A stretch of DNA of 60,193 nt from Bugula neritina (lineage: Eukaryota; Bryozoa; Gymnolaemata; Cheilostomatida; Bugulidae), in the NCBI GenBank assembly GCA_964035545.1, contig CAXIUT010000257.1, forward strand, positions 1-60,193, given 5' to 3'. The position numbers and the translations under genes were made by a program. Below the pieces are notes generated by a model. That model was not told the origin of the DNA, did not search any database, and saw only the letters and a program-made list of their open reading frames with translations. Of this stretch, positions 1 to 23,851 are shown piece by piece (within the stretch, counting starts at the first letter, position 1; each line of letters opens with the position of its first letter).

Positions 1-2153
1 CCTGAGAATGCCTGCGCCAAACGAACGATCAGCGATATGAACTTTTGCCCCTGCCCGGGTGAACCGAAAGTGGAACACAGATCCCTCAGTGCGATTTCCA
101 GAAAATCTGCTTGCTCAGGATCAAGCGCAACGGTGTATGTCCAATTCAGGTTCTCCTCTAGACCCCGATCCCGAATGACCAAAGGGGCAAAACCGGTGGT
201 CGCTCTAAGTACGACCGCTTCGTCGATTTTGTCCAATCCGAATTCTTCACGCAACCGTTCAGACAGTTCGATCTGGGAGGCCGCCCGGTTGCGTAGATCA
301 TAGGCGTCGTTCTCGTTGCCCGCTGATTCAGCCCCGCCTCCTGTCGCGCGAATATCACGCACACTGCGCGTCACCGCGCCGGTTACAAAACGTAGCCCTG
401 CGCTGACGGCCGCGGGAGTTTTTTCTTTGAAGTCAACAAGATCAATTGTGAACACATCGTCTTCGGTAGGATTGCTCAGGAACGTACGCATTGTTTCACG
501 CGCCTGTTTTGCAAACGCCAGGCGGGCTGCGCGTGCGGCATCTGTCTCGTCACTTGTGACAATTGACAGCGGGATATATTTTGTGCGGACGGCGTTAAGT
601 TCGTCGCGGACTTTGTTCAGATCTAAACTGCTTCGAGAGCCATGGTCGGCAAGGTGAATGACAAAACGCGGTCCATCTTCAAACCATCCTTGATCTGTTT
701 CAAAACGTCGGGCTTGTTGCACCACGGCTTCAAGCGCCGCTTCCTCTCGCAAACCTACCTTATCGTTAAGTCCAGCATGGCTCGAGATAACCTCGAGCGG
801 CCCCGAAAGATCGACGCCTCGGTTAATTGACCGCGAAGGCATCAAGGTTTTGGTGTCAATTGGGTCATCCAGCCCAGTGGCAGACGCTTTTTTGAAATCG
901 CTGTAGGCATAAACCGCCATGCGCATATCCGGCAGTCGCAGCGCTTCGTTAAGCCGGTCCTCGCGATATTTATCAATAAAATCAGAGATGCCTTGCCGTA
1001 CCAGCGGCAGATAGGGCCTCATGCTTTCTGTCGTGTCAACAACCAACATAACGTTGATCCGCTGAAACTCGTTCAATCGTTTGGCCAGATCGGCCTGCGA
1101 GACAAGATCGCCAGCTGCATTCGATCCTGAGCGTCCTAAGAAAATTACCTCGTGATAGGCTGGATCCTCAGGGTCGGCGAAAATGTCGCTCAAAGGATCC
1201 ACTGTGCGTACAATGGGGTAAGACAAGAGTTGCCGGTTGCCGTGGACATATTCCTCAAGTTCTTCAGCAGGCAAACCGGGACGGATGTTTGGTGCCGGTG
1301 TTCCGTCGCGCCAATTTGTAATCAAATCTCCGAGTTCTGTGAAAAGATAACCTTTGCCTGCTGCGTCATAGAACAGCCCCAAACGTGTCGGCCAAATTTC
1401 GAGTCGATTGAGCGCGATCCAGCCGAATATTCCGCTCTCTCCGTCGCCAACCAAAACGACAGGGCCGCCGGATTCATCGATATCTATATCGTGAATTTCA
1501 AGAACAGAAAAAAACGTGCGATTAGGCAGCGCTTGCCCACCACGCGCCTCGGTCCGGAACACCACTTCGCCACGGCCCGCGGCTGCATCCGACCCCAAAA
1601 GGACCCCTTTGGCACGCAACCCCGACGGAATTCCATCACACTCTAGGTCTTTTTGGTCAGGCACAAGCGTGCTGAGTTTGGTGCAAAATGTTCCTAATGG
1701 CATCGCCCGCGCAGCCTCGCATATCGGGCGGGATTTTCGTGTAAAGGTATCCAGTTTCTCGCGGCGATGTTCATCCAAAAGCGCCTTCCGCGGGACCCAG
1801 CCGCATGATGACAGATCCTTGGTTGCCACAAAAACCCGTCGCTCACTTGAAGGACCCGTTTCGGCGTAGCAATTCACCTGCGCAAACGCGCCATTTACAG
1901 TTGCGGCCGACGTTCGACTGCCAGCCAACGGGAAAAGTGGTATGCCATCCCCGATCAGCCATTGGACACCGTTTGATTGTCCTTCTAGCGTTTTTGAAAC
2001 CTCTTTACAGTCAAGGGAATCGTCGAGCTGCAAAAGTTCTTTGGATATCCCTAGATCCCTATCTTGCGCTTGACTGTACGCAACATTCGCAAAGGCGCAG
2101 ACCGTGGTTACCGCTAATGCTGACCGCATAATAATGTTTGCAAATACAGGCAT
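1..2153 (-). CDS. Secreted vWA-domain protein, partial (3' end off the left edge; full copy at 54416-56974)
   Basis: This is the N-terminal 717 or so residues of the 852-aa vWA protein described in full at 54416-56974. The reading frame is still open at base 1, so the truncation is a window-edge effect and not a broken gene. The start codon shares one base with the stop codon of the upstream gene (TGATG arrangement), which suggests translational coupling. Confidence 0.9.
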   Translation of the reverse strand, partial: MPVFANIIMRSALAVTTVCAFANVAYSQAQDRDLGISKELLQLDDSLDCKEVSKTLEGQSNGVQWLIGDGIPLFPLAGSRTSAATVNGAFAQVNCYAETGPSSERRVFVATKDLSSCGWVPRKALLDEHRREKLDTFTRKSRPICEAARAMPLGTFCTKLSTLVPDQKDLECDGIPSGLRAKGVLLGSDAAAGRGEVVFRTEARGGQALPNRTFFSVLEIHDIDIDESGGPVVLVGDGESGIFGWIALNRLEIWPTRLGLFYDAAGKGYLFTELGDLITNWRDGTPAPNIRPGLPAEELEEYVHGNRQLLSYPIVRTVDPLSDIFADPEDPAYHEVIFLGRSGSNAAGDLVSQADLAKRLNEFQRINVMLVVDTTESMRPYLPLVRQGISDFIDKYREDRLNEALRLPDMRMAVYAYSDFKKASATGLDDPIDTKTLMPSRSINRGVDLSGPLEVISSHAGLNDKVGLREEAALEAVVQQARRFETDQGWFEDGPRFVIHLADHGSRSSLDLNKVRDELNAVRTKYIPLSIVTSDETDAARAARLAFAKQARETMRTFLSNPTEDDVFTIDLVDFKEKTPAAVSAGLRFVTGAVTRSVRDIRATGGGAESAGNENDAYDLRNRAASQIELSERLREEFGLDKIDEAVVLRATTGFAPLVIRDRGLEENLNWTYTVALDPEQADFLEIALRDLCSTFGSPGQGQKFISLIVRLAQAFS

Positions 2154-4246
2154 CAGTTTACTCCAGATCCGGAAATAGTGTCTTTTATTATGAGAACCAA
2201 TTGGTCAGACAATGCCGTCGTGTAGCGCGCTGCTACATCGACACTATCGCGCCAAGGCTCTACGATGAAGGGATAAATTGTAACGTTGAGATCGCCGTTG
2301 TCGCAAGTATATGCCCCTCCTTCGCCCAATGCTGCTGGCGAAAATCCTCTGGGCTGCAAACGGCTTGTGTCTAATGGTTTGGTGCTTGGAATATGGCGCA
2401 TGATCGAGAAAACTTTGAACTGCACAGGGACACCTGGTCGCGTGTTAAGCCGGGCTACCGCATCTGTAAACAGTTCACCTTTGCATGGGTCAACCGTCTC
2501 ATCGCTTGTATCTGGCTGGACATAGCTCAGTAATGTAACGGTCAGCGCCGTCAAACCGTCTTCCGTTGCCTTATCTTGCAGCGGAGAAATCGCTTTCTCT
2601 AGCGCTTTCGCATCAAGTGCCATCCGAGAATTGATCAGCTTCGTGCGGAAACGGTTTACCTTTTTAAACGACCCTAGAATACGGTTTCGCAGCGCATCTG
2701 AGCCGAGTTCCAATGCCTTATTGAAAACTCCGCGCCCGGACACGTTTCCCATGGTGAGATTATCCAACGACCATGCCTGGGACCCGCTTGTTTTGGACAG
2801 GCGGAAGTGTGCTGCCTGTACCGCATCCACAGATTTGCGGGCTAAATCGGCGGCATCTAACGGATCGAGCCCTAGGCGTTCTTCAAGTTCTTTCCCATCA
2901 ATCAGAAAAACATGCGCTAAAGCTTCGCGCTTCGCATCGCCAACACCAAGCCCAATTTCCAAAGTCTTCTGAACCGGCAATGTCACCTCCTGGTCAGTGA
3001 AATCACAATTCTCGACAGGTGCCACATTAACAAGGGTTGCCCGAACTTGATTTTGGTTAATCAAAAAGGGTTGTTTGATCGCTGCACCAGTACGTAAACT
3101 ACCATCAGCTTGACGCCTAGGTTCCAATTCCAATTTTGCGGCTACCCCATCGGTATCGGTATAGTGCAAATCGAATCGGCAATTTCCGTAGTTAAGCACT
3201 GCTGGAATTTTGAGAAAAACCTGCTCAGGCATTTCAACCGCCGCGCCTTCCTTGATTACCCAAGTGCCATTGTTGGACACGTCAATTCGCGCTTTTAGTG
3301 CCGTAAGTTTAGCCATCTGCGATCCACTTTCGGTGCAATCTACGCGATCTTCAAAAACGTCGGCTCCAAGCGCCAAAAGAATGCAATCCAGACGATCTAT
3401 CCCAAGATCTTGTGCATCTTCTACGCGTCCGTCGTTGTATTTAATCTTTATGTTTGGTCCACTCCTCTGTGCAGAAACCTGTGCGGATGGGGCTTTTATC
3501 TCCACTTTTAGAATGGCTTTCTTCGTTTCTCTGGTCGGTGTCGGTACTGCAGCCTTTACGAAAGACTTCATGCTCTCACAATTAACGCCACCGCAAAGTA
3601 CAAAAATTGGCATGCCTTCCTTGACGCTGGCCAATTGAAAAAATTTCTTAATGTTCTCTGATATACCGTCGGCTTTGATGCTACGACTATGTCCAACATT
3701 CCCTTTTTTCAGTCCAAGATAACGAGGTTCAGACAGGTTTTGGCTATCAAGTTTCAGAAATAGATTTGTGCCGTCAGTTTCAACTTTTCCATTGAAAAAG
3801 GCCGATATATTGAAGTTTTTGGCAGCCCACTTTTTGGCTTTCGTTTCAGCGTCAGCGGCCGTTTCAAAAGTACGTACAAGCAAGACCGGTAAACGGGTGT
3901 TATTAAGAAAACGAAATTGGTCTGGGTTAGGATCTTTGTTGGCAACAAGCTCTACAACAATCAGTTTACAACCTAATTTCACAGCGTTGCTATCACTGGG
4001 TGAATCTGTCAGCAAATATGGTTCAGTTCTAGAATCCAATATTTCTCTGACGCTCACGGGGTCGTTAGAAACTGTCCACCCAATTCGACTGAAAATCATT
4101 GCGCCAGATATCTCAGTACTCTCTAAGAAACCTGCAGAGGACAGTAAGCTTTGACAATCAAACTCATCCTGTGTTTGAGCGGTTAGCGGCCCCGACAAAG
4201 CAAACAATAATACTGTTCCAAAACTCTGAATCAATTGTTTAAGCAT
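2153..4246 (-). CDS. Secreted protein of unknown function, 697 aa, envelope cluster
   Basis: I do not recognise a family. The N-terminus has a typical Sec signal (positive start, hydrophobic run ending in a TAQ-type cleavage site near residue 24), so the mature protein should be periplasmic or surface-located. Residues 90-160 look like a SPOR-like or alpha/beta segment in which a target is read from secreted proteins, but this is weak. The C-terminal third is helical and acidic. Paired cysteines are scattered through the protein, as expected for an oxidised compartment. The gene lies 12 nt after the 278-aa coiled-coil gene and its TGA overlaps the ATG of the vWA gene, so all three should be made together. 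It is repeated at 56974-59067. Confidence 0.85.
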   Translation of the reverse strand: MLKQLIQSFGTVLLFALSGPLTAQTQDEFDCQSLLSSAGFLESTEISGAMIFSRIGWTVSNDPVSVREILDSRTEPYLLTDSPSDSNAVKLGCKLIVVELVANKDPNPDQFRFLNNTRLPVLLVRTFETAADAETKAKKWAAKNFNISAFFNGKVETDGTNLFLKLDSQNLSEPRYLGLKKGNVGHSRSIKADGISENIKKFFQLASVKEGMPIFVLCGGVNCESMKSFVKAAVPTPTRETKKAILKVEIKAPSAQVSAQRSGPNIKIKYNDGRVEDAQDLGIDRLDCILLALGADVFEDRVDCTESGSQMAKLTALKARIDVSNNGTWVIKEGAAVEMPEQVFLKIPAVLNYGNCRFDLHYTDTDGVAAKLELEPRRQADGSLRTGAAIKQPFLINQNQVRATLVNVAPVENCDFTDQEVTLPVQKTLEIGLGVGDAKREALAHVFLIDGKELEERLGLDPLDAADLARKSVDAVQAAHFRLSKTSGSQAWSLDNLTMGNVSGRGVFNKALELGSDALRNRILGSFKKVNRFRTKLINSRMALDAKALEKAISPLQDKATEDGLTALTVTLLSYVQPDTSDETVDPCKGELFTDAVARLNTRPGVPVQFKVFSIMRHIPSTKPLDTSRLQPRGFSPAALGEGGAYTCDNGDLNVTIYPFIVEPWRDSVDVAARYTTALSDQLVLIIKDTISGSGVN

Positions 4247-4258
4247 TAAACCGTCCTC

Positions 4259-5095
4259 CTATTCGAAAATGACAATATGCGCCGCATCGGAATTGTTGCG
4301 CGGAGCCAAGCGGATCATTTGGCCTGTACGATCACGAGCACAAAGATTTGGGACGTCATTTTCCCACACCCAGATCACGCGTCTAAGAGCTTTTTGACTT
4401 CCGTCCTGCGCGATCATCCAATCAAGACCCTGTTCACACTGCTTCACGCTTAACCGCGGGATTCCAACACGCAATGAATTGATGTTTTTGGCTGTGGTGA
4501 GAGATAGCCGCGCGTTATCCCCCAAATAGCTGAAACCTGGATCAGGAGAGATCTCGAACGCGGCCAACCGCGCTTCGAGCTGCACAACGCGGGTTTCAGC
4601 CTTGAGGCGCTTATCGAGCTCGACTCTCAATTCATCGGTCCGCGCTGTCAACTGGTTCGCAAGGCGATTGACTTCGGCGCTCATTTCGCTCGTTGCTTCA
4701 TTCTCTTTGGGGTCGTCACTAAAGGATGTGCAAGCTTCCAACCGATCATTCAAATTCAGATTCGAGCGACGGGCCTGCTGCCTGTCTTCTTTGCAAAATG
4801 TGATTTCTTCTTGCAGCAACTGTAACTGTGCGTCGTCAACACCGCAGCTATCTGCGGGTGGCTCCAAAGACGCCATTGACGAAAGCATCAAGACAAGTTG
4901 GGCCTTGTCTGACGTACAGGACGCGAGGGCCAGCTGCGTCGCTGTTTTGGAGTCCGTTGTATTTTCAGCAGTCCCAACGGCTGTGGGTTCGGTCATTTGT
5001 TGGTCGCTTGTCGGTTCTGTTTCTTGCGCAGCAATGAATGTGGTGAAATTCAATCCCAAAATTGTAGCGCAAACAATGCGTCCGAATTGTATCAT
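4259..5095 (-). CDS. Periplasmic coiled-coil protein, 278 aa, envelope cluster
   Basis: The open frame extends upstream to 5227, but I place the start at 5095. An AGGA ribosome-binding sequence precedes this ATG by about 9 nt, the first 25 residues then form a clean signal peptide ending AAQ, and the longer version would run deep into the ABC transporter gene. The mature part begins with a Thr/Glu-rich linker, followed by a charged heptad-like region around residues 95-180 with many Leu, Glu, Arg and Gln residues, probably a coiled coil. A C-terminal domain of about 80 residues contains two Cys and several Trp residues. Only four bases separate it from the stop of the MacB-like transporter. 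A periplasmic coiled coil next to a MacB/FtsX-type transporter could act as its partner, in the way EnvC serves FtsEX. That is an inference from context only. Confidence 0.85.
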   Translation of the reverse strand: MIQFGRIVCATILGLNFTTFIAAQETEPTSDQQMTEPTAVGTAENTTDSKTATQLALASCTSDKAQLVLMLSSMASLEPPADSCGVDDAQLQLLQEEITFCKEDRQQARRSNLNLNDRLEACTSFSDDPKENEATSEMSAEVNRLANQLTARTDELRVELDKRLKAETRVVQLEARLAAFEISPDPGFSYLGDNARLSLTTAKNINSLRVGIPRLSVKQCEQGLDWMIAQDGSQKALRRVIWVWENDVPNLCARDRTGQMIRLAPRNNSDAAHIVIFE

Positions 5096-5099
5096 GGCG

Positions 5100-7463
5100 T
5101 TATTCCTGTAAATATTTCTTAAGCTGGTTGCGGGTTTGTCGCCACCAGATCGCAACGACCAATGCGGTAATAATAGCCGTCGCGGCCCCCAGCTTGACAA
5201 CAGATTGTGTAAAGCCCACTTCGGCATAGTCCCAAATTGACCCCAGATTAGGCGGTAGAGCAGGCATTAGGAAATACAAAGCGAGCGCGCCGTATCCGAC
5301 AAAGAAAACCAAAGCGAAGATAAAGGCGGGTATAAGATGGCAAAAAATGGCCCAAAAGATATCTAAAAAGCCTGCACCGTGGGCAATGAAAAGAGCGAGC
5401 ACGCGTTTGTTGAGTTCCAGAATATTGTTGATGACAAGGAACACGAGCATTGCGCATCCAAATAGGCTCATCCAGACAATGACGGGCGGCACACGGTGCG
5501 CCAATCGCGAGATATTCTGAAGCGTTTTGACCGCCGCTGCACTGTCATCGCGCACACGGTAATGACTGTCCTGAATCACATCACGCGCGTTTTCAAACCC
5601 ATCAATCGGGAAATAGGCGGTTGCGATATTAAACGGCCGCGGTGAGTAACCTGTTTGCAGCCCCGCCGCCCGTTGGAAATCATGTTCGAAAATGATGATC
5701 TCTGCTTGCGACGGATATAGCGGTGGGGGCAAAGCAATGGAGCCTCGGATTTCAAGTTCTATCGGTGCGGTGCGACCGCCCTGCCCCGCAGCCCATTGCA
5801 CAATGATTGGGCTGTCTATCGGATGGCCGCAACGCTCGATAAGCGTATCGACATAGAATTGGTCAAGCATGGCAATTCCAAGCGGGTTATCAAAATTGGT
5901 TTCATCCGCGCGCGCCTCGGAAATGATGACGTCTGGCACATCGGTAAGGCCCGCTTCGCCACTGGATTTGACAAGCTGCGTTTGGCGGACCAATGGATCG
6001 TGCGCGTTCAGTGCAACGGTTTGCAACGGCAGCCAACGATTGCAGCCCGCCTCTGGCGATCTGAAACGTATTGCTGAACCACTGACCGATCGTCTTCCAT
6101 AAACCGAGACGCGTTCTATTTCCTGCGCGGAGGTTCCTTTGGTCTTTAACGCGCTGGCTATTTTGTCGCGTATAGTAGGCACAGTGCTATCGCCATACAG
6201 CTGTTGAGGCGCGTCGTCGGCGTTTTCGTCGGCAGGCACAATGTATTCAAAGACAATGCGCGCCACTGACGGGTCCTGCAATTGGGCGTCACTATAGGAT
6301 TGCGCAAGACGGCCAAAACCTTCGACCGCAGCGATTTGCGCCAACAGAATGCACAGAACAAAACCAAAAGAATATCGGCTGTAACTGAGCAAGCGAAGCA
6401 GCCAAGACCGGACCCTGTTTTCCTTCACCGGCTTGCCAGTCACCAGCCCCAACGTCCGCAAAAGAGATCGGGGGGCAAGGTGTGGATGATTGGTTCGCTC
6501 TCCACGCGGAGACAGCCATTCCTCGTAAGACAAAGCGTTCGCGATCCAACCGGAAAATTGCCACCTGCCAGGTGCAATAACACGGTCTTCGGTCGGTTCC
6601 GCCGCAGCCTGCGTGGTGTTGTTTTTGGCGTGTGTGTTAATATCCTGGCTGATGTCCCGTAAAACGGTGAGCCGCTCTGCCCAGGTTTCGGTCCCGAATG
6701 GATCAAGATCCGACGCCTCGTCTTCTTCGTATTTAATGGCCAGAGCGAAATTTTGCGCTTCGGTCGGTTCTACGACGCGCCCGTCAGCGACGAAAACGAA
6801 ATGATTTGCAAAGCGCGCGGCATGTTCCAGATTATGCGTCACCCAAAGAACGGGCCGCCCAGTTTCATCCGACCATGCCTGCAGCGCTTCCATTGCATAT
6901 GTTGCCGTACGTTCATCTAGGCTGGATGTTGGCTCATCACACAGAATTGCGCGCGGGTTCATCGACAAGGCGCGCATAATCGCGATGCGCTGCGCTTGCC
7001 CGCCACTTAATTGATTGGCCTTCTTTCCGACCAAACTGTCTGACCCATCCTGTAGATCAAGTTTTTCCAAGGCGCGGCGTAACTTGGACAATCCGAGGGG
7101 TGGATTATCTGCATCTGGCACCCGCGAAACTTGACCCTGTAAAACATTCAACAGGCCACTGCCCACACCAAGGAGCATCGGGTTTTGGAAAACGAAAGAC
7201 ACCAGCCCCGGGGCAACACCTGAGTGCGAGATATCGCGGCCCTCGAATGTGAAATGACCACCATCTTTAATCTGTGGTGTCAAAAAGCCAGCAAGAATCG
7301 ACAGCAGCGTCGTCTTGCCCGATCCCGAGTGCCCAATAATGGCCGTCACACCTGTCGGATTAATGTCAAGGTTTTCGACGATAATCCCATGCACCCGCGT
7401 GCTATCGGTCTCTACTTTTTTGTTGTTGTAGAGATAGCAAACGTCTTTCAATGAATATGACAT
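5100..7463 (-). CDS. MacB-topology ABC transporter, ATPase fused to permease, 787 aa
   Basis: The N-terminal 230 residues are a LolD/MacB-type ATPase: Walker A GHSGSGKT at 44-51, signature LSGGQ at 152-156, Walker B ending in DEP at 176-178, and the switch histidine at 210. A linker follows, then one membrane helix near 364-384, a periplasmic domain of about 270 residues, and three closely spaced helices near the C-terminus (about 650-775). This one-plus-three arrangement after a fused ATPase is the MacB/FtsX (type VII, mechanotransmission) layout, in which ATP use in the cytoplasm moves a periplasmic domain instead of pumping solute across the membrane. It is longer than typical MacB (about 650 aa). 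No MacA-type adaptor or TolC-type outer membrane channel is encoded nearby. It is separated by one base from the upstream membrane-protein gene and by four from the coiled-coil gene downstream. A 5'-truncated second copy lies at 59921-60193. Confidence 0.93.
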   Translation of the reverse strand: MSYSLKDVCYLYNNKKVETDSTRVHGIIVENLDINPTGVTAIIGHSGSGKTTLLSILAGFLTPQIKDGGHFTFEGRDISHSGVAPGLVSFVFQNPMLLGVGSGLLNVLQGQVSRVPDADNPPLGLSKLRRALEKLDLQDGSDSLVGKKANQLSGGQAQRIAIMRALSMNPRAILCDEPTSSLDERTATYAMEALQAWSDETGRPVLWVTHNLEHAARFANHFVFVADGRVVEPTEAQNFALAIKYEEDEASDLDPFGTETWAERLTVLRDISQDINTHAKNNTTQAAAEPTEDRVIAPGRWQFSGWIANALSYEEWLSPRGERTNHPHLAPRSLLRTLGLVTGKPVKENRVRSWLLRLLSYSRYSFGFVLCILLAQIAAVEGFGRLAQSYSDAQLQDPSVARIVFEYIVPADENADDAPQQLYGDSTVPTIRDKIASALKTKGTSAQEIERVSVYGRRSVSGSAIRFRSPEAGCNRWLPLQTVALNAHDPLVRQTQLVKSSGEAGLTDVPDVIISEARADETNFDNPLGIAMLDQFYVDTLIERCGHPIDSPIIVQWAAGQGGRTAPIELEIRGSIALPPPLYPSQAEIIIFEHDFQRAAGLQTGYSPRPFNIATAYFPIDGFENARDVIQDSHYRVRDDSAAAVKTLQNISRLAHRVPPVIVWMSLFGCAMLVFLVINNILELNKRVLALFIAHGAGFLDIFWAIFCHLIPAFIFALVFFVGYGALALYFLMPALPPNLGSIWDYAEVGFTQSVVKLGAATAIITALVVAIWWRQTRNQLKKYLQE

Positions 7464-7464
7464 G

Positions 7465-7956
7465 CTACAAGTAACCCCTTCCCGATCTTACCAATATGAC
7501 AGCCAGCGCAACCGCAAGCAGCCCGGATACTATAAAAAGTGCACGCGACGTCGACGTTACCAGCCCGCCATGACCCATGAGCGGTACAATAAATCCGCTG
7601 AACCAAATGACGGCGAATACGATTGCGCGGTCACGCTGCAAGCCTACATTACGAGCAACAAACGCACCGCCTGCGGCCACAATAACCCATGCGATAATCG
7701 CAGACGTGAAATTTACGGAGAACGATATCCAGCCAACCGGAACAGGCCAACCGCTGATTAAATCAATCCCGAACGGCCCGATACTCACAGACACTGCGTA
7801 CCAAAGCAGCACCCATACCCCGATAGCGAGGCCAAGGCCCACGCTGGTTAATAGGGCCGTGCGTGGTCTTTTGCTCAGCAAAACTAAACCTGCGATCGCA
7901 AGTGCTGCCGCAAAAGGCGGGGCGAAGGAAATTGGATCACTCTGTTGGAGTATCAT
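7465..7956 (-). CDS. Small integral membrane protein, about four helices, 163 aa
   Basis: The protein is almost entirely hydrophobic, with about four membrane segments (near residues 12-28, 33-58, 75-100 and 110-160, the last possibly two) joined by short charged turns. It has no cleavable signal and no recognisable catalytic motif. Its start lies 20 nt inside the upstream gene and its TAG stop is one base from the ABC transporter ATG. It is therefore probably an inner-membrane subunit or accessory of that transporter. I cannot name a family. Confidence 0.82.
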   Translation of the reverse strand: MILQQSDPISFAPPFAAALAIAGLVLLSKRPRTALLTSVGLGLAIGVWVLLWYAVSVSIGPFGIDLISGWPVPVGWISFSVNFTSAIIAWVIVAAGGAFVARNVGLQRDRAIVFAVIWFSGFIVPLMGHGGLVTSTSRALFIVSGLLAVALAVILVRSGRGYL

Positions 7957-8920
7957 TGAAGCGACCCTCCAGCAGTGAAAGCTCTGACATCATCGGCGCG
8001 GCGCAACTGACGTTTTTTTGGATTTTGGATAAGTCCGACATCGCCTGCGTGTGCACAGCTTTGTCGCCAACAACCACGGCCAAAAGCCCCAAGGCAAAAT
8101 GCCGCCAAGACGCCATTTCTGGGGAAATTTGGCGCACGACCTGCTCTGCCAAATCCCGATCAAGGGCGAAAGCCAAATGTCCAAGCATCAAAGGGCATGC
8201 GCCCGCCTCGGAGAGATCAAGGATCCGGTCGGAAAAGTCGCCAATGATCTTGGGGCACTGGCTGTTACCCTGCTCCCAAGGTTTGGCGCGCATCCACCCC
8301 AACACACGCCAGCTGAGAACCTGAAAACTTAATGGATCAGCCTTCTGCGCCTCGTCTAAGCGCAGCAACAGGTCACTGGACCATGCCTTTGACGACTGGT
8401 CGTTGGCTGTGACAATGGACCAAAAAAGCCGATCTGAACGCAGGCTATCCGGCACGTCTGATTGAGCCGCAAACTGGTCAATAAAGGCTCTCGCTTCAGC
8501 GTATTTTCCAAACTGGATTGCTGTTAAAATAAGTTGATTTTCAAGTACTTGTCTTTGATTTACAGACAGTTGCCCCGCGTCGAGCCCATCGTTCAGAAGA
8601 CCAATCGCAACCTCATAGTCACGCGCAAAACTGGCGAAAGATACTGCGCGCCGGACGTCTTCTGGCATGGGATTCAGCGTGATCTGCTCGCGCATTGTTG
8701 CAGTATCTCCAAAACGGACCAGAGACTGACTACAGCCCTTTTCGATCTGCGACTCTATCCGGCGTGTATCGACGATAGGCTGCGGCACGACAGTGACAAT
8801 GCGTGCCCATTCCAGATTGGTGCGCACCCATTGGGTTTGCGGTGCCGCAAGCTGGTCTGCCAACGTCACCGATCCAAGTCCCATTACCAGAGCCGTAGAA
8901 GTGATACGCGCAATCTTCAT
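7937..8920 (-). CDS. Secreted helical-repeat (TPR-like) protein, 327 aa
   Basis: A signal peptide of about 21 residues is followed by a chain of paired helices rich in Ala, Leu, Tyr and Asp between residues 85 and 310. The spacing resembles tetratricopeptide or Sel1-like repeats, although no single repeat is textbook quality. Such proteins usually act as periplasmic scaffolds. The start ATG overlaps the stop of the ExbD-like gene upstream by four bases (ATGA), and its own end overlaps the next gene by 20 nt, so it is firmly inside the operon. The function is inferred only from position and shape. Confidence 0.85.
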   Translation of the reverse strand: MKIARITSTALVMGLGSVTLADQLAAPQTQWVRTNLEWARIVTVVPQPIVDTRRIESQIEKGCSQSLVRFGDTATMREQITLNPMPEDVRRAVSFASFARDYEVAIGLLNDGLDAGQLSVNQRQVLENQLILTAIQFGKYAEARAFIDQFAAQSDVPDSLRSDRLFWSIVTANDQSSKAWSSDLLLRLDEAQKADPLSFQVLSWRVLGWMRAKPWEQGNSQCPKIIGDFSDRILDLSEAGACPLMLGHLAFALDRDLAEQVVRQISPEMASWRHFALGLLAVVVGDKAVHTQAMSDLSKIQKNVSCAAPMMSELSLLEGRFNDTPTE

Positions 8921-9549
8921 CGGAAAACACTTTGCGAGGTGAAACTGCGGGGTGACAGGACAAGCACAAGTTTCAAAAGTTCGTCTGCTTTTGGGGCCTT
9001 GACCAAGGCATAGCGAAGCCGAATATCACAGGCCTGGCTTAGGCCCGACAAAGGCGCAAGATCGTCCACATCCGATACCAAAAAGACGGTTAGCTGAGAA
9101 CGCAATCCTTGGGGGCATTCGATGCCCCGCGCTAGATCCAACTTTGCCCGCACCCACGGCTCAGGCGGGGCCACTGGATCGACGTACAGCTGCAGGGATG
9201 ACGCATTTGGCACAGCTTTATAGCGCGAGCTGGTGGAAAAGATGGCATCACCGCTTGGGCCAGCGTAGGCCGCATCGGGTTCCTGAAGTCCTAAGGCAAC
9301 GGCCGACATATTAAGGACAGTCAACGCGCCACCCGTATAGATCGCGAAATCGCCACGCTCCCTGACGGCCTTCCAGCCCGAACTGTTCAGTTCTTGCGTC
9401 ATGTTCTGTTGCGCAATGGATTCAACATTTACGCGCGGTTCTTCGACAACGATGCTGAATTTTATGAATACGAATAAAACAAGGATCGAACAGAAAAAGG
9501 TAATCGCCAAATCGATCGATGCAGTGTCCAGATCGCTTTCATTTTCCAT
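8917..9549 (-). CDS. ExbD/TolR/MotB-type protein, second copy, 210 aa
   Basis: I choose the start at 9549 rather than 9648. It gives the short charged cytoplasmic N-terminus usual for this family and only an 11-nt overlap with the preceding gene. Asp13 sits at the start of a single membrane helix (about residues 12-34), the place of the proton-carrying aspartate of ExbD, TolR and MotB. The rest (residues 35-210) is a periplasmic domain with two Cys residues and no PG-binding OmpA motif that I can see. Together with the preceding ExbD-like gene and the ExbB-like gene it should form a proton-driven motor unit. One channel protein with two partners recalls AglR/AglQ/AglS in Myxococcus and ExbB/ExbD1/ExbD2 sets. 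Confidence 0.8.
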   Translation of the reverse strand: MENESDLDTASIDLAITFFCSILVLFVFIKFSIVVEEPRVNVESIAQQNMTQELNSSGWKAVRERGDFAIYTGGALTVLNMSAVALGLQEPDAAYAGPSGDAIFSTSSRYKAVPNASSLQLYVDPVAPPEPWVRAKLDLARGIECPQGLRSQLTVFLVSDVDDLAPLSGLSQACDIRLRYALVKAPKADELLKLVLVLSPRSFTSQSVFR

Positions 9550-10000
9550 CCGGCAACTCCATATTTGCCAAGGAAACGACATATACAGACCGCGACCCAG
9601 AATCGGCGCGCGGGATGTCATCAAGATTAGAGTTCCGCGTCGCCACAAGTTCCTTTGAAATAAACGTATAGCAACGCCCTGTAATCACGCCGCGCTCGTC
9701 GGGGACAACCGCCAAAAGGTAGTAGGGTTTTGCGCTCATGTCCATTCGATCGGGAAGGTTCGCCAGATCGCTTGCTTGCGCTACAGGCATGGCATCGGCG
9801 GCAATTCGATCTGCGGGCCAAACCAGCGCGTTTGTAATGACCTCATTGTCAGTTTGTGCGGGGCACGTCGCAAGGAAATCGGCCTGAAGCGGAATTGGCT
9901 GGGGTTCGAAAGGTTGAGACACCGCAAGGACCATCAACAAGGCCGCGGCCGCAGAAATGAATAGGTCCGTCATCGCCAAGCCAGCTGATTGACCGATCAT
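9539..10000 (-). CDS. ExbD/TolR/MotB-type protein, first copy, 153 aa
   Basis: A ten-residue N-terminus leads to Asp12 and then a hydrophobic helix (about residues 11-29), again matching the single helix and essential aspartate of ExbD/TolR. A proline-rich linker follows, then a small periplasmic domain with two cysteines. The ATG overlaps the TGA of the ExbB-like gene by four bases, the usual order for exbB-exbD, tolQ-tolR and motA-motB pairs. Sequence similarity beyond the membrane helix is too low for a firm family name. Assignment rests on the helix, the aspartate and gene order. Confidence 0.8.
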   Translation of the reverse strand: MIGQSAGLAMTDLFISAAAALLMVLAVSQPFEPQPIPLQADFLATCPAQTDNEVITNALVWPADRIAADAMPVAQASDLANLPDRMDMSAKPYYLLAVVPDERGVITGRCYTFISKELVATRNSNLDDIPRADSGSRSVYVVSLANMELPDGK

Positions 10001-10488
10001 GCCGAGGCGGTCTTGATTGCAAGATGGCTCACTGTTCGAAAGATCATCAACAAAACTGACGACGTCAGCCCAAGAAAGGTTGTGTCGAACGCGGTCGATA
10101 GTCCTCCAATCAAAGCCGCTGGATCACCTTCGCCCATCGCAGTCTCAAGCCCGCCAACAGCCAGCGACACACCAATGATTGTCCCTAGAAAGCCCAAGGA
10201 CGTGAACAGAGTTTGACCCCACAACGTGAACATATCATAGGCTGCGGCACCGGATTGACCCCGACGCATCGCTACAACGGCATGAAGCGGCATCGCCAGC
10301 AAACCACTCAGCAACGCGCCTTGATAAACGCTTTGGAAACTGCGCGACAAAACACCGCCCAGATATCCGCTCTCGGCAAAACGCTGATGATCTAGCCCAT
10401 TGGCAGCAGCGAGCCAAAGAAGACCCGCCACCAGCATGGTCATACCAATCGCATCAAGGAAAACGCGTGCTCGAATTTCCATTTTCAT
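9997..10488 (-). CDS. MotA/TolQ/ExbB-family channel protein, compact, 163 aa
   Basis: There are membrane helices near residues 12-31, 92-118 and 130-150. The second contains GFLGTIIG (99-106) and the third STAFDTTFLGL (131-141). These are the two conserved pore segments of the MotA/TolQ/ExbB family, which conducts protons or sodium to drive a periplasmic partner. At 163 aa it is clearly shorter than ExbB or TolQ (about 230-245 aa), and most of the large cytoplasmic loop is missing. A GGGGG run just before the ATG can serve as ribosome-binding site. It is followed directly by two ExbD-like genes. In this cluster it should power movement or force transfer in the periplasm. Confidence 0.85.
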   Translation of the reverse strand: MKMEIRARVFLDAIGMTMLVAGLLWLAAANGLDHQRFAESGYLGGVLSRSFQSVYQGALLSGLLAMPLHAVVAMRRGQSGAAAYDMFTLWGQTLFTSLGFLGTIIGVSLAVGGLETAMGEGDPAALIGGLSTAFDTTFLGLTSSVLLMIFRTVSHLAIKTASA

Positions 10489-10505
10489 GCCCCCAGTACA
10501 TTGGT

Positions 10506-11132
10506 TTACTGAGTCACACCATCCAGCAGGCTTTCGGCTAGAACTTTACCGTTTTCGACAATGCTCGAAAATTCATTGACGTTATTGCGGATGGATTGTG
10601 CGGCAAGCTGCACCTGATTTGCCTTGATGAAAAACACGAGCGCGTCATCATTTTCTTCGAGCGTGCGCAGCAAGTTGCGCGCCTCTACCACAGTCGATGA
10701 ACGCTTGCGGTCATCAGACTCCAAGTCATCCAACGTTTTCTCCAACCCCGGAATCGCGGTTTTAATAGCACTGTTGTTAGAGGCTTCTGCTTCGGCAATC
10801 AAGGCAAGCGTTTCCTCCTTATACTTGTCGATCGCCAGATCAAATGTAGATCCATCCTCCATCTGGGTTGTCGCTTCTTTCAGATCAGCAATAAGCCCAG
10901 AAACGCGTTCTTGAGCCTGCTCGATTTCGACCAACCCTTTTTCGAGTTCTTCCAGAAAAGGCGGGAACGCCTCGGTGCGGGATTGCAGTTGTTCCATCAG
11001 TGATTTGATCTGTGCAGCACTGGCCTCAACTTGGTCTTCCGCTGACTGTGCCCATGCACCTTGTGCCGCAAATGGCATGGCCAAAGACGCACAAACGGCA
11101 ACTCGCATGCCAAAATCCAACAGTTTAGTCAT
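10506..11132 (-). CDS. Periplasmic coiled-coil protein, 208 aa
   Basis: A signal peptide of about 28 residues ends in an AWAQS-type cleavage site. Nearly all the mature protein is amphipathic helix rich in Glu, Ala, Leu, Gln and Lys with heptad spacing, predicted as one long coiled coil. There are no cysteines in the mature part and no enzyme motifs. It lies 17 nt upstream of the ExbB-like gene and 76 nt downstream of the 277-aa gene. A long periplasmic coiled coil beside a motor pair suggests a spacer or force-transmitting rod. That is an inference. Confidence 0.85.
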   Translation of the reverse strand: MTKLLDFGMRVAVCASLAMPFAAQGAWAQSAEDQVEASAAQIKSLMEQLQSRTEAFPPFLEELEKGLVEIEQAQERVSGLIADLKEATTQMEDGSTFDLAIDKYKEETLALIAEAEASNNSAIKTAIPGLEKTLDDLESDDRKRSSTVVEARNLLRTLEENDDALVFFIKANQVQLAAQSIRNNVNEFSSIVENGKVLAESLLDGVTQ

Positions 11133-11208
11133 AGAGAATCTCCTTACAGATTAATAATGTTTATCTAGCCTAAATTGAGACTAAGCTTGACGTTTGGAAA
11201 GCCCAAGC

Positions 11209-12042
11209 TCAGCTTTCGCAGAAGGCAACATAGAGTCGAACAATGCCACGGATCGTTCCAGCCGCGTTTTCCAAGGTCTTTACAGAGGTCGTCAGACTCG
11301 AAATTTCGACTTTCAATCCTTCTAGCTTTTGCTCCGATCCTCGAACCAATTTATCAACCAAATCGTCCGCAGTCCCTTCGGTTTTGTACCCGCGCACGAC
11401 GTTCTCCCAGTCTGTCTGGCATTGCTGCACATCTTGGGCTTGACGCTGAAGAGAGCGCAAGTTTGCCGGATTTTCGGAGGCCAGTTTGAAGCTGGCGCTA
11501 AGATCTTCTCGTGTAAATCCGCACAACGCTTCGCGCTCGCTTACGTCTCCATAATCTCGAGTAAGCAATTCACCATAGGTTGAAAGTTCGGATTTGATGT
11601 CCGTGATAAGCAGTGCGGATCGCCCTTCAAGTTCCACAACCGTGGATGAGCACGCGGGTGCAAGCTTAGCCAACTCACATTCTTCTTGCTCGAAGATATC
11701 ACCAAGCTTGGAACAGTCCACTCCCGACTCCGTTACTGGCTCCGACACGACGACCTCAGCAGGTTGTGTATCGCCTTCGGCTTTTCCACCAAGCAGCGAC
11801 GCACATGTCGCATTGTCTTTCGCATTTGCGCGCCCCTGTTCGTCAAAGAAGTTTGCGACGCAGAATGACACATTGCTCGACAGGAAATCTTCATTTCCGC
11901 AAGAAAATTGGGCGCAAGTTGCAGGACAGGTCGACTGCATCTCCGTGTTAGAGCAAATGTCGATGTTAGCTTGAGCCTGAACCAAAGTTCCAAAAAAAGC
12001 AAAAAAAATAGCGGAAACACTAAATCGCAGCAAAAAATTCAT
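11209..12042 (-). CDS. Cysteine-rich secreted protein with coiled-coil C-terminus, 277 aa; first gene of the envelope operon
   Basis: The frame is open to 12096, but the ATG at 12042 has a GAGGG ribosome-binding sequence about 7 nt upstream and opens directly into a signal peptide ending VQAQA. The first 80 mature residues hold many cysteines in short spacings (CxxxxxxxC, CxxxC, CxxC-like), as in small disulfide-rich domains. The second half is helical with heptad character and ends in a lone Cys. It is the first gene of the minus-strand run. The next 200 bases upstream are AT-rich and hold no gene, so the operon promoter should lie there, although I see no convincing -35/-10 pair. Confidence 0.85.
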   Translation of the reverse strand: MNFLLRFSVSAIFFAFFGTLVQAQANIDICSNTEMQSTCPATCAQFSCGNEDFLSSNVSFCVANFFDEQGRANAKDNATCASLLGGKAEGDTQPAEVVVSEPVTESGVDCSKLGDIFEQEECELAKLAPACSSTVVELEGRSALLITDIKSELSTYGELLTRDYGDVSEREALCGFTREDLSASFKLASENPANLRSLQRQAQDVQQCQTDWENVVRGYKTEGTADDLVDKLVRGSEQKLEGLKVEISSLTTSVKTLENAAGTIRGIVRLYVAFCES

Positions 12043-13233: not shown

Positions 13234-14496
13234 TCAGCGCCCTTGTTTCTGCTTCATGAAAGCTTCCAACGATAAGCGGTTTTCGGGCCGATGGCGGCAG
13301 CTCTTGTCGCATTCCTTGATCCAATCCCTACCTCGTTTGTGAGCTTCGACATGGACAAGGTACATGTAAGCCCTAATTGGGCTTTTATTTATCAAGCCGC
13401 GATAGTCCCCCTTAAGCAGAGACAGTACGTCAAAGAGCATTTGCCGAGGATACCACCGCACCAGCACGCCAATTATTTTGGTGCTGCTGGTATGGATTGT
13501 TCCTAGTTGACTGAGCCCATCTACAATACCCTCGATGATGTAGGGGATATCCTCACTGGGGTTTGCTTGTTTAGGCGGTATTCGCCCTTTTGGGGCGGTT
13601 CGAGGAATTTTTGTTGCTACAAATTTCCAGTCGGTTTTATCTTTGGTTTCCTCAATCCACACCTGTAATTTACCGCTAGAAAGCTCTTTACCGTCCAGTT
13701 CTAGCACAAAACGCTTAAGCAACTCGTGACGAGCAAACCGCTGGTCGTATCGCGTGCCTCCCAAAAAAAGCTCTTCACGTATGAGCCCTAGCGACCGCCG
13801 TTCCCACTTTCGCTTTTGGCTTAAATAGCTATCAAGCAAAGTGTAGAGGTTGGCGCAGCTTTCGTTTTTGATCGACAGAAAAGCGTCATAATTCACTGGC
13901 TTAGTATTCCCTGCCAACATGTTTTCAACAATCCGTGGATTGAGCATGACGGTTTGTTGAGACGTGAAAAGCTCACTTCGCAGAGAGTCCTCTCTCTCGA
14001 TGTATGAGCGATCAGAAATGATGTTCATTTCTTGAACTCGAGTCTCTACCTTGGAGTCCCGTGTATATGAACGTAGCCAATCAATTTGAGTGCCTTTAAG
14101 GATGGTCAAATGATCCTGTATTCGGCGGGCAACGTTCTTTCCTGACCAACGCCAGTGGAGTATATGTGCCATCTGGCGTGCCGAGAATACGACCTCCCCA
14201 TTCTCTGGTTTACCTGCCAGCTCCCATAGTTGCGTCAACCCTAAGTAAACCTTGAGAGTCGTGGTTGTAGGGCGCTTTTTTCCCATCAACGGCGTGATTG
14301 TCAGCGAAGCTTTGGCTTTCTCTCCCCCTCGATCAACTTCCCACGTAAATACTTTGGGTTGATCTAGGTCGCGAGCGTATGGAGATGCAAAAATTCGACC
14401 CGCAGACCGACCGATGTTTACGTCCGGTCGTGTGATTTCGACCGGATCGAACATTTCTAACTGGATAGCCGATTCAGCCTTAATGATGTTGTTCAT
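13234..14496 (-). CDS. repA: Plasmid replication initiator (RepA, RPA-type), 420 aa
   Basis: The protein resembles the replication initiator protein A family: an N-terminal domain with beta-rich ITPLMGKKRP-type segment, a winged-helix region around residues 95-280 including the RFARHELLKRF stretch, and a basic C-terminus. The decisive evidence is the flank. Six copies of a 19-bp iteron and a perfect DnaA box lie immediately upstream (14502-14664). The first iteron begins only five bases before the ATG and overlaps the AGGG ribosome-binding sequence, so RepA binding should repress its own synthesis as well as start replication. The family name is from memory. The initiator role is well supported. 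Confidence 0.9.
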   Translation of the reverse strand: MNNIIKAESAIQLEMFDPVEITRPDVNIGRSAGRIFASPYARDLDQPKVFTWEVDRGGEKAKASLTITPLMGKKRPTTTTLKVYLGLTQLWELAGKPENGEVVFSARQMAHILHWRWSGKNVARRIQDHLTILKGTQIDWLRSYTRDSKVETRVQEMNIISDRSYIEREDSLRSELFTSQQTVMLNPRIVENMLAGNTKPVNYDAFLSIKNESCANLYTLLDSYLSQKRKWERRSLGLIREELFLGGTRYDQRFARHELLKRFVLELDGKELSSGKLQVWIEETKDKTDWKFVATKIPRTAPKGRIPPKQANPSEDIPYIIEGIVDGLSQLGTIHTSSTKIIGVLVRWYPRQMLFDVLSLLKGDYRGLINKSPIRAYMYLVHVEAHKRGRDWIKECDKSCRHRPENRLSLEAFMKQKQGR

Positions 14497-21003: not shown

Positions 21004-21366
21004 ATGCCGCGAACCGAATACCAAAAGCAGTACTGGCAACAGTACCGCGCCCGTAGATGCCGTGTTACGATCATGCTCTCCCCAGGCGAGTACAGATTGT
21101 TAAAGGCGCGGGCGGGCAAATCCCGCAAACCTGGAGAACAGATTTGGCTGGAAGCGCAGGCCTACCGCGAAGAGCGCTATCTGCCGCCCGAGGTGGTGGT
21201 GCAACGGTTAGAGACTGTTTTCGCCATGATGTTGCGTCTCCACGATCTTCTCACGGGTCTGCAGACTGGTCCACTGGCGCAGACGCGCGTTTTGCCAGAA
21301 ACTCTACAGCGTTTACACCAAATGCGAGCGAGCCTTGATAAATTTCTCAGCCCATCACGGCGATGA
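21004..21366 (+). CDS. MobC-like relaxosome accessory protein, 120 aa
   Basis: This is a small, very basic protein beginning with a Tyr/Gln/Arg-rich segment and an RVTIMLSPGEYRLLKARA stretch that fits an RHH-type strand and helix. Helical regions follow, as in MobC proteins that melt oriT for the relaxase. Its TGA overlaps the relaxase ATG by four bases. Function follows from this coupling. The protein itself is too divergent for more. Confidence 0.75.
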   Translation: MPRTEYQKQYWQQYRARRCRVTIMLSPGEYRLLKARAGKSRKPGEQIWLEAQAYREERYLPPEVVVQRLETVFAMMLRLHDLLTGLQTGPLAQTRVLPETLQRLHQMRASLDKFLSPSRR

Positions 21367-22304
21367 TCCTGAAATCTCTAGGTCATAAAACCCGCTCATT
21401 CGGAAAGCTCTTGGCCTATGTGGCGCGCGGCGCTGCGCAGGACGGCGCGGCAAAGAACAGAACTGACCAAAACAACGCACAAGAATGCGCAGGCAAGCCT
21501 GCTGTTTTCAGCCGTAACCTGATGGTTGATCCAAACGATCTGGCCGCAGTGGAGCAGGCATTTGAGCAAAACGCACGGTTTTTGCGTCCGCGCCAAGGTG
21601 GCAATTGGTGCTATCATGAGATTATCGCACTGCCGGAGCCGGTGAAGGAAAAAGACAAGGCGGCGGTGGAGGCAATGCTGTTTGAGCTGGCAGTTCAGTA
21701 CGTCAAAGGACGTGCACCGCGCCAGCTGGTTTGGGGGCAGGTTCATTGGGAAACCAAGCATCCGCATTTGCATCTGGTGATCTCTGCCAATGAGGTCAGA
21801 TCCCCGCGCCGGGTCCGACTGCCCAAAGCGCGCTTTACCCAGCTCATTGAAGAGCTGGAGGTATTCAAATGCGCGCGCTGGCCTGAAGTACTGCCGGAAA
21901 AGCTTTGGCAGCACCGCAAGCACTACAATCAAAAGCGCCGCAGCCATGCAGAGGATCATCTGACACGTCGCACGGGCCGCGCGTCCAAGCGCGCTGAGTT
22001 GGCCGAGACACTGTCGGAGATCTTTACCCGCGCTCGCTGGATTGATGATGTGAGGCATGCGCTGAGCGAAAAAGGCCTGGCGCTTTACCGACGAGGCCGC
22101 ACCTGGGGCGTACTGCAGCAAGCCAGTGGCAAGCGCCACCGCTTGAGCCGTCTAGGGCTGTTCAGCGCCTTTGAGGCGATGGCACAGCGCATGCAGATCT
22201 TAGAACATCGTTTGGATCAGTTGACAGAGAGGCGCACCACCGGCACCGAGCATGCAACGGGGCGCGAAAGAGTTACCAAACCATATAACCCATTAAGACT
22301 ATGA
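21363..22304 (+). CDS. Relaxase/mobilisation nuclease (MOBP-like), 313 aa
   Basis: The start MILKSLGHKTRSFGKLLAYV matches the N-terminus of alphaproteobacterial relaxase/mobilisation nucleases and includes a candidate catalytic tyrosine at residue 19. The three-histidine metal motif is at 128-137 (HWETKHPHLH). The basic C-terminal half would hold DNA. The enzyme nicks oriT, stays bound to the 5' end and pilots the strand to the recipient. It is shorter than relaxases with primase or helicase domains, and a separate primase is encoded at 16-17 kb. The gene overlaps both neighbours by four bases. Confidence 0.9.
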   Translation: MILKSLGHKTRSFGKLLAYVARGAAQDGAAKNRTDQNNAQECAGKPAVFSRNLMVDPNDLAAVEQAFEQNARFLRPRQGGNWCYHEIIALPEPVKEKDKAAVEAMLFELAVQYVKGRAPRQLVWGQVHWETKHPHLHLVISANEVRSPRRVRLPKARFTQLIEELEVFKCARWPEVLPEKLWQHRKHYNQKRRSHAEDHLTRRTGRASKRAELAETLSEIFTRARWIDDVRHALSEKGLALYRRGRTWGVLQQASGKRHRLSRLGLFSAFEAMAQRMQILEHRLDQLTERRTTGTEHATGRERVTKPYNPLRL

Positions 22305-23851
22305 ACCGCCGCATAATCCGATATTGGCGCGCCTGCTTGGCGATTGCTGCTGTGTTATGGGGCATCACGCGCTTTAGAGAGAGACGAAGCCAAGGAAAGG
22401 GCAGCGCCAGCTTCATGTCTGCTTGGCAACGCTGGCGTCTGCTCAGTGAGCGCAACGCCGGATTTCTGATCGACGGGGTGTACCGCGCGCTGTCGCGGAA
22501 AAAGTCGTTTCAGAGCGTGCTGGTCGTGGGCGGCGTTGGAAAGGGCAAAACCACGGGGTTGTGTATCCCAAACCTGTTTCATCTGAAGAACGCATCCTTG
22601 GTGGTGATCGATACCTCAGGCGAGTTGTTCGAGCTGACATCCGGCACACTGGCAGCCGAGGGCCGCGATATCCAAGTGCTGGATCTGATGCGCCCGGGGC
22701 AGGGGATTGGCTACAACCCGTTTGAGCGCTGCACCACCTTGCTTGAACGGCACCGTGCCTGCGCTGCCCTGGTGCAAGCCGCATCGCTCAATGAGGGCGA
22801 TCCGTTCTGGGATGACGGAGCCACTAAGGTTCTGCGCGTGCTCTCTGGCGCGCTCTATGCCCAAGACCCGGCGCAATGCCATCCGGGAAACCTACGTACC
22901 TTACTGGCGCATTTCGATGTGTTCAGTGCCAAACCTGGCTTTAGCGTGATGGACCGCTATATGGCCGAGGCCACCCGCAATGATCCAGCTACGTGGGAAG
23001 ATTACCGCACGCTGGTGAATGGAAACCCCAATACAGTGCTGTCATTTATTTCAACGGCGGACACAGCGCTGACGGCGCTCGCCAGTCCTGAAATCGCTCG
23101 ACTGACGGCAAAGACCACGTTTGATTTTCAATCGCTGCGCAAACGTCCAACCGTGCTCTACGTGAAGGTCAACGAACAGGACGTCAGCTTTTATCGGTTC
23201 ATCTTAAATCTTTTCTTCACCGATCTGTTTGGCGCGCTGCGCGAGCATCTGCCCCAAGAGCGAGAGCTCGATGTGTTCTGCCTGCTCGATGAGTTCGGTC
23301 AGCTCAAATTGCCTGATTTCGATAACGTCATCGCCACTGCCAGAAAATACCGGCTGGGCGCGATGATCTTTTTGCAAAGCCTGGCGCAGTTAGAGGATCG
23401 CTATGGCCGCGCCAAGGCGCGTACCATCCGCGACGCGCTGCAAACCGAGCTCTATTTTGGCGGAGTGGATTTGGAATTGGCCAAAGAGTTGGAACGCCGC
23501 CTGGGTCGACAGCGCATTGCACTGGAACAACAAGGCCAGCGCATCCACCGCGAAGAGAACTTGATGAACGAGGATGCTATCATCAAAATCCCCGACAACA
23601 CGCTGATAGTGTTTCACTCAAACATGTCTGGATTTCTGCAGCGGTTCACGCCGTTCTATCAGCGCAAGGCGCTGCGGCAGGGGACCAGCATGCCGCCGAT
23701 CAAGACCGCAGAGCAGCCGCGCGTTGTGCCGACAATTGGGCCTGAGTTGGAGCGACTGCGTGAGATGAGCGAAGGGCGCGTGCGCGGTGAGAAGAGCAAA
23801 GAGAACGCCGGGAGGATTGCCAGGTTAGAGGACATCGCGGTGACGTTGTGA
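22301..23851 (+). CDS. Type IV coupling protein (VirD4/TraG family), 516 aa
   Basis: A single N-terminal membrane helix (about residues 9-23) is followed by the ATPase domain: Walker A GGVGKGKTT at 77-85, Walker B LLDEFGQL near 328, and the RKYRLGAMIFLQSLAQL segment typical of VirD4/TraG. The hexameric pump links the relaxase-DNA complex to a secretion channel in the inner membrane. No VirB-type channel genes occur on the circle, so it must work with a channel encoded elsewhere in the host. ATGA overlap with the relaxase gene shows one transcript. Confidence 0.92.
   Translation: MNRRIIRYWRACLAIAAVLWGITRFRERRSQGKGSASFMSAWQRWRLLSERNAGFLIDGVYRALSRKKSFQSVLVVGGVGKGKTTGLCIPNLFHLKNASLVVIDTSGELFELTSGTLAAEGRDIQVLDLMRPGQGIGYNPFERCTTLLERHRACAALVQAASLNEGDPFWDDGATKVLRVLSGALYAQDPAQCHPGNLRTLLAHFDVFSAKPGFSVMDRYMAEATRNDPATWEDYRTLVNGNPNTVLSFISTADTALTALASPEIARLTAKTTFDFQSLRKRPTVLYVKVNEQDVSFYRFILNLFFTDLFGALREHLPQERELDVFCLLDEFGQLKLPDFDNVIATARKYRLGAMIFLQSLAQLEDRYGRAKARTIRDALQTELYFGGVDLELAKELERRLGRQRIALEQQGQRIHREENLMNEDAIIKIPDNTLIVFHSNMSGFLQRFTPFYQRKALRQGTSMPPIKTAEQPRVVPTIGPELERLREMSEGRVRGEKSKENAGRIARLEDIAVTL

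Follow-up and report, generated by a model that had tools for sequence, protein, structure and literature searches.

Can a single bacterial operon join a proton-driven motor to an ATP-driven lever and put both to work on one apparatus in the periplasm? Proton-driven motors and type VII ATP-binding cassette (ABC) proteins are two well-known ways to produce movement outside the inner membrane and, to our knowledge, the two are not known together in any system with periplasmic proteins common to both. The question is raised by a stretch of 60,193 nucleotides from the Bugula neritina assembly GCA_964035545.1 (contig CAXIUT010000257.1), here called the window, in which eleven adjoining genes, named A to K, encode a MotA/TolQ/ExbB channel protein (C), two ExbD-like proteins (D and E), a MacB-type ABC protein (H), a small membrane protein (G) and six apparently exported proteins, one of them (K) with a von Willebrand factor A (vWA) domain. 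A first-pass annotation, made from the letters alone, had not recognised the combination, and our literature search of titles and abstract beginnings, with subscription papers and preprints mostly outside it, likewise found no description of such a gene set under any system name. Our analyses show that the eleven genes are one conserved operon, representing an apparently undescribed system whose function we infer.

Operon structure

The window covers slightly more than one turn of a circular contig 54,821 bp long, as bases 1-5372 recur identically at 54822-60193 (5372/5372 identical) in an untrimmed circular overlap. The operon is therefore continuous through the contig join, and K, which might have been taken for a vWA gene truncated by the contig end, is complete at 54416-56974. 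Gene counts made across the full window double everything in the overlap; thus J (2153-4246) appears again at 56974-59067, and the first 717 residues of K are also encoded at 3-2153.

All eleven genes lie on the minus strand in one run, from A, which begins at 12042, to J (4246-2153) and, across the join, K (56974-54416). The successive intergenic gaps from A to K are 76, 17, -4, -11, -4, -20, 1, 4, 12 and -1 bases, so that nine of the ten are overlaps or shorter than 20 bases; the H-to-I gap of 4 assumes the ATG of I at 5095, and the longer open reading frame (ORF) of I would give -128. Every start codon adopted is ATG, and a purine-rich stretch lies upstream of some. ORF positions, gaps and overlap thus confirm the ten packed minus-strand ORFs at 2153-12042, continuing into a vWA gene, that the first-pass annotation described. 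Its four-helix membrane protein corresponds to G (7465-7956; 163 aa), a small polytopic protein with four to five hydrophobic, putatively transmembrane (TM), stretches by hydropathy, and its count of at least five exported proteins agrees with the signal-peptide-like starts of A, B, F, I, J and K.

Putative motor genes and ABC protein

C (9997-10488; 163 aa) matches the Pfam family MotA_ExbB at 27.6 bits against a curated cut-off of 22.9 (E 2.6e-6), and its GxxGTxxG and AFDTT motifs are invariant in 7/7 homologues. The protein ends shortly past its last hydrophobic stretch and has no long cytoplasmic tail. Among solved structures, a profile of C finds ZorA alone as a relative (8vvn, E 0.0023), and the best PADLOC models are those of ZorA2 (4.3e-8). 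D (9539-10000; 153 aa) and E (8917-9549; 210 aa), the latter within an ORF that opens with TTG at 9648 and for which the ATG at 9549 fits the relatives, each have one N-terminal TM helix by hydropathy, and each carries in it an aspartate that is invariant in 7/7 homologues (Asp12 in D, Asp13 in E); D also has two cysteines past residue 25 in 5/5 members. We call D and E ExbD-like only from this topology and the invariant aspartate. According to PMC12905483, the channel pentamer of 5:2 motors encloses a dimer of single helices, and the motifs of C together with the TM aspartates of D and E make up the constellation of such motors. Two partners that differ from each other, both with such an aspartate, are present at every complete locus, which makes a pair of one D and one E the simplest arrangement; two homodimeric motors are also possible.

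H (5100-7463; 787 aa) matches ABC_tran in Pfam at 1.5e-25 and the FtsX C-terminal family weakly (0.0015, below cut-off); among its relatives the FtsX match is strong (best 3.8e-10, 4/7 members). An N-terminal ATPase is followed by a permease of four TM helices, with a periplasmic domain of about 280 residues between TM1 and TM2, which is the architecture of type VII ABC proteins, and the Walker A and B motifs, Q-loop, signature and switch histidine are invariant in 7/7 members. Structure models, which among the eleven proteins are those of H and K, place H close to MacB, chains of which supply the top seven Foldseek matches in the PDB (E 9.5e-21 to 1.6e-18, about 790 columns); the VIA rows for H cover mostly the ATPase. 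Proteins of the MacB type, as described in PMC5985334, relay ATP-driven changes to the periplasm rather than moving cargo through their own membrane.

Related loci and conservation

Prokaryote genomes were reached via the ABC loci of a contig scan and then via a DNA match to an IS5 insertion sequence (IS) on the window, from which the order to be searched was taken as Rhodobacterales. Scoring the best two candidates per genome, the H query matched 3/390 genomes of the order at 1e-28 (G701, G684 and G739). A profile of K found the same 3/390 again, by construction, as it was built from those genomes and the window, on what was apparently the same draw of 390, and it matched no additional genome. 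Within the family of G701 the K profile matched 5/265 genomes: G701, G1180 with a full compact operon, and more weakly G1016, G1031 and G1081. The class draw yielded 1/279, the centre genome itself, and the phylum draw, with a single-sequence query and uninformative by itself, 0/398. Genes in the relatives were called from ORFs, BLAST and bias in GC content at third codon positions.

A compact operon, with all eleven genes in the same order, is found in the window, G701, G1180, G1194 and G1195, with 38-50% identity for H and K; G701 corresponds gene for gene from A to K, the match of G being weak (E 0.11), and 3/3 genomes of the G1180 genus carry the compact form. The loci of G684 and G739 are split: one block holds H, J, K and an additional gene, F lies in reversed orientation with an additional coiled-coil-like gene, and then come A and B, a further small gene, and C, D and E; in G684 an I-like gene follows E. 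G1016 and G1031 have C, D, E, H and K plus A-, B-, F-, G-, I- and J-like genes at corresponding positions, the H-J-K and A-E blocks being divergent in G1016, and all genes but C, H and K being assigned in G1031 by place and features only (D and E by place and TM aspartate). In G1081, genes like I, J and K are present and H is cut by the contig end. The nine other genomes thus comprise four compact loci, four that are rearranged or diverged and one cut by a contig end. C, D, E, H and K are co-located in 9/9 loci with enough contig, window included, and their blocks remain one locus in 9/9 with K identity falling to about 20%. The motor and ABC genes paired in the first-pass annotation hence recur together elsewhere; the neighbourhood is not due to chance, and the system is rare, maintained as a set and so far known only from probable Rhodobacterales.

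The same annotation pointed to other Rhodobacterales plasmids as a place to find the set, and this was not borne out, five different K proteins having no match among 72,556 PLSDB records. PLSDB searches with K, J, C and a protein labelled M gave no relatives, and those with H gave ATPase-type matches only, none covering 80% of H among the best 20 of at least 5000. Viral contigs searched with C and K gave no pattern match, and the contig scan returned nine pattern matches to K, none of them a relative, and three ABC genes for H that matched in the ATPase only.

Orthology was assessed by comparing profiles. Between compact and split loci the like-named gene is the best match for nine of the ten shared genes (A-F, H, I and K, not J). 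Probabilities exceed 85 for six of these (A, C, E, F, H and K); D reaches 54.6, B only 7.4 and I only 2.4. Between compact loci and G1016 this is so for 8/11 genes (A, B, C, D, E, F, H and K), weakly for D (1.4), E (5.7) and B (37.4), and BLAST links A to E of the split clade to G1016 at 1e-13 to 1e-36. When G1180 was compared with two genus mates, omega was 0.14-0.43 in 22/22 gene comparisons covering all eleven genes, amino-acid changes being fewer than silent ones in each; this indication of purifying selection is a plain count within one genus without a significance test, and to judge from these values the proteins A to K are constrained in sequence. Amino-acid identity within that genus shows K and B changing least, and G, J and F most. 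In its 3/3 genomes the operon lies between a response-regulator-like and a TadE-like gene (L030, L031, L038 and L039; by eye); the operon of G701 is flanked by transposase-like genes (by eye) and that of the window, on a plasmid, adjoins a short integrase gene.

Putative exported proteins

Signal peptides were called by eye and hydropathy, and the signal-peptide-like N-termini of A, B, F, I, J and K terminate in many cases in A-x-A-Q (by eye). A (11209-12042; 277 aa, with a longer TTG start possible at 12096) is a cysteine-rich protein with sequence relatives in 7/9 other loci, the remaining two being G1031, where the match is positional only, and G1081, where the gene is not visible; ten cysteines are invariant in 6/6 aligned sequences. 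B (10506-11132; 208 aa), helical and coiled-coil-like, has no cysteine beyond its signal region; it shows 51-53% identity in the compact loci and a weak profile match to the split loci, and its Pfam matches are of coil type and below cut-off. F (7937-8920; 327 aa) is helical-repeat-like, its compact and split versions being related with an hhalign probability of 87.5. I (4259-5095; 278 aa) is coiled-coil-like, with a conserved C-terminal stretch and six cysteines in 4/4 compact members. J, a large protein of 697 aa, shows 22-32% identity in the compact loci and is matched by position elsewhere; no Pfam family was found at E 0.01 in 8/8 members, three of them positional only. The membrane protein G has sequence relatives in compact loci only, and these are weak for the window's own G (E 0.11 to 3.7e-8). 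For A, D, E, F, I, J and K, most members have an even number of cysteines (A of G701, K of G1031 and an untrimmed E do not), which, together with the ten invariant cysteines of A, fits disulphide-bonded periplasmic proteins.

K (852 aa) matches the vWA family at 0.0043 alone and at 8.2e-5 for the best of its relatives. In the predicted model, residues 360-600 adopt a confident vWA fold, closest to integrin I-domains, and the model is poor outside this central domain (mean pLDDT 54). The domain has the metal-site motif DxTxS at 373-377 together with D503, and the metal-site residues are kept in 8/8 members, as expected of a vWA domain. The N-terminal region of K, which lies in the poorly modelled part, contains GW and is reminiscent of SH3b domains.

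Plasmid, host and neighbouring genes

The source assembly comprises 215.8 Mb in 295 contigs, among whose listed matches C is the sole MotA_ExbB protein, and hence the plasmid is probably that of a bacterium associated with the organism that was sequenced. The IS5 element of the plasmid shows 84.5% and 81.3% identity to elements in Phaeobacter and Sulfitobacter plasmids, a likeness that supports a host within Rhodobacterales. Relaxase-like and TraG/VirD4-like genes at 21363-23851 suggest that the plasmid is probably mobilisable, the relaxase scoring 24 bits, just under its Pfam cut-off of 24.6. The product of 13234-14496, which we take to be the replication protein, has no Pfam match and none in the 72,556 PLSDB plasmids, and the replicon type is possibly undescribed.

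Three genes near the operon were considered as members of the set and rejected, none having a full-length relative at the other loci compared: those for a 354-aa membrane protein (53282-54346), a 1339-aa protein (48552-52571) and a 348-aa peptidoglycan-binding protein (47509-48555). Between the operon and the last two lies a remnant of IS30, near 52981-53217. The 1339-aa protein looks exported, and its gene overlaps that of the 348-aa protein, which has a PG_binding_1 domain (4.9e-9); an 885-aa gene product beside the G1016 locus (L033 16004-18661) has a peptidoglycan-binding domain in common with it. Elsewhere on the plasmid, 25396-31359 encodes a 1987-aa DUF4011/helicase/REase protein that matches the candidate defence family PDC-S37 across most of the profile, with a HerA/TraG-like ATPase gene upstream at 32498-34462.

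Proposed mechanism and alternatives

We see about an even chance that the operon encodes a dual-powered inner-membrane machine, driven by protons and by ATP, that acts on periplasmic or cell-wall targets. From what is known of the family, five copies of C would build a proton channel that encloses two single TM helices from D and E, most simply one of each, and proton flow would move the periplasmic domains of D and E. A dimer of H, working like MacB, would use the binding and hydrolysis of ATP to open and close its own periplasmic domains. With less support, A, B, F, I, J and K may sit on both engines in the periplasm, stiffened by disulphides, where the metal-site vWA domain of K might take hold of a target or of a structure being built. 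Apart from the ABC ATPase, the set has no recognised catalytic domain, nor has it a recognised outer-membrane part, so the most likely role of the machine is to exert force on, or to control, cell-wall or envelope factors that the host encodes, delivering either force or a signal. More tentatively, at somewhat below even chances, we suggest that a proton motor with an obligate pair of unlike ExbD-type proteins and an ATP-driven MacB-type lever work in one complex, two energy sources serving one periplasmic apparatus, a kind of machine not described before. With its two unlike ExbD-type genes, each complete locus offers a natural test of whether such motors can run on a heterodimer.

Several observations weigh against this proposal. 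Searches of D and E against Pfam, NCBIfam and PDB profiles returned no ExbD, TolR or MotB family and no PDB chain, and because they lack a sequence match to ExbD or TolR the 5:2 motor is one that we infer. H superposes only loosely on MacB (query-based TM-score 0.32-0.36; rmsd 12.8 for 550 residues). The split loci yielded no G gene, and G739 no I gene; J is unrecognisable across clades, G and J evolving beyond recognition, and profiles of the compact loci match those of G1031, the most distant locus, strongly for C, H and K only. The patchy occurrence (3/390 and 5/265) and the plasmid or IS settings suit an accessory or defence role equally. Finally, motor and ABC protein would have to be coupled, and two modules could share an operon without a shared task.

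The likeness of C to ZorA invites another account, in which the set is an anti-phage or anti-competitor system: the C-D-E channel would sense envelope damage or depolarise the cell, as in Zorya, with H and the exported proteins as sensors. The patchiness just described, the plasmid copy, the copy between transposase-like genes in G701 and the PDC-S37-like protein encoded by the same plasmid are all in keeping with this, but C is only 163 aa long and has no ZorA tail, no cytosolic effector was recognised among the eleven proteins, and one site is retained in 3/3 genomes of the G1180 genus. Furthermore, PADLOC, applied to C, D, E, F, H, J and K, matched only C and H, the latter chiefly via its ATPase (mad3, 3.1e-26), and we regard a defence role as unlikely. 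H, being MacB-like along its whole length, might instead pump a periplasmic peptide or lipid out by way of a TolC of the host, in which case the C-D-E motor would open or drive the step at the outer membrane; we give such an exporter only a small chance, for Pfam recognised no MacA/HlyD adaptor or TolC-like protein among the eleven and no small substrate gene was seen with the set.

Assembly of a surface structure, adhesion or gliding, by a machine like Agl-Glt of Myxococcus and with the vWA domain of K as an adhesin-like element, is rather improbable too. One MotA-like with two MotB/ExbD-like proteins is also the AglR/Q/S pattern (PMC9389320), the vWA domain of K is closest to integrin I-domains, and a TadE-like gene adjoins the operon in one genus (by eye); yet that neighbour is confined to the one genus, and no outer-membrane or surface-anchored protein, lipoprotein or pilin was recognised in the set. 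That a motor operon and an unrelated ABC operon merely lie side by side is very improbable: the H-J-K and A-E blocks do separate in the split loci and are divergent in G1016, but they share one locus in 9/9 cases despite rearrangement and the divergence of K, and in 0/9 loci does the H-K block lack a nearby C-E block. The dual-powered machine remains the reading that we prefer.

Comparison with known systems

The set that the first-pass annotation assembled, of ExbB/ExbD/ExbD, MacB-type ABC, vWA and exported, partly coiled-coil-like proteins, holds as a conserved and apparently undescribed multi-gene set; its description as envelope-spanning is not supported, given that no outer-membrane protein or lipoprotein was recognised in the set and nothing recognised reaches the outer membrane. 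A lipobox-like motif was seen in 1/47 N-termini examined, there at residue 40. Pfam gave no match to TonB, TolA, Pal, OmpA, MacA, lysozyme or amidase domains in the eleven proteins, and NCBIfam, applied to seven of them (not A, B, G or I), none over its curated cut-off among the matches shown (for H, the best 25 of 190). Within this scope TonB, TolA, Pal and TolB of the Ton and Tol-Pal systems are unmatched, and the noted absence of partners of the TonB, Tol and Mac types stands for the eleven proteins.

Zorya is the system that C resembles most by profile, through ZorA, yet here there is no ZorA tail, no peptidoglycan-binding domain was detected in D or E, and ZorC, ZorD and ZorE are absent; Pfam matched none of the eleven proteins to a helicase or nuclease, and PADLOC on the seven proteins found ZorA as the sole Zorya component. 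Zorya needs both the ZorA tail and its effectors (PMC11890865). The MacAB-TolC systems are defined by an adaptor, and no HlyD/MacA domain was found in the eleven proteins by Pfam. With the other type VII ABC proteins (MacB, FtsEX, LolCDE and YbbAP), H shares an ATPase, an FtsX-like permease and a large periplasmic domain, the model being nearest MacB, whereas in place of a MacA/TolC, LytM-type, LolA or TesA partner, of which none was recognised here, its neighbours are motor-type and unclassified exported proteins.

With the 5:2 motors (ExbBD, TolQR, MotAB, GldLM, ZorAB and AglR/Q/S) the operon shares a MotA/ExbB-type channel and single-pass proteins with a TM aspartate. It differs from them in that each channel gene is accompanied by genes for two unlike ExbD-type proteins, a feature that among those named only AglQ/S share, and in that a MacB-type ABC protein is encoded in the same operon; no part resembling TonB, TolA, Pal or OmpA was recognised. 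AglR/Q/S is the nearest motor gene pattern to C-D-E (PMC9389320). By analogy, the system would work as if a 5:2 motor like Tol or Agl had been combined with a regulator like FtsEX, of the type VII ABC class, while being a member of neither.

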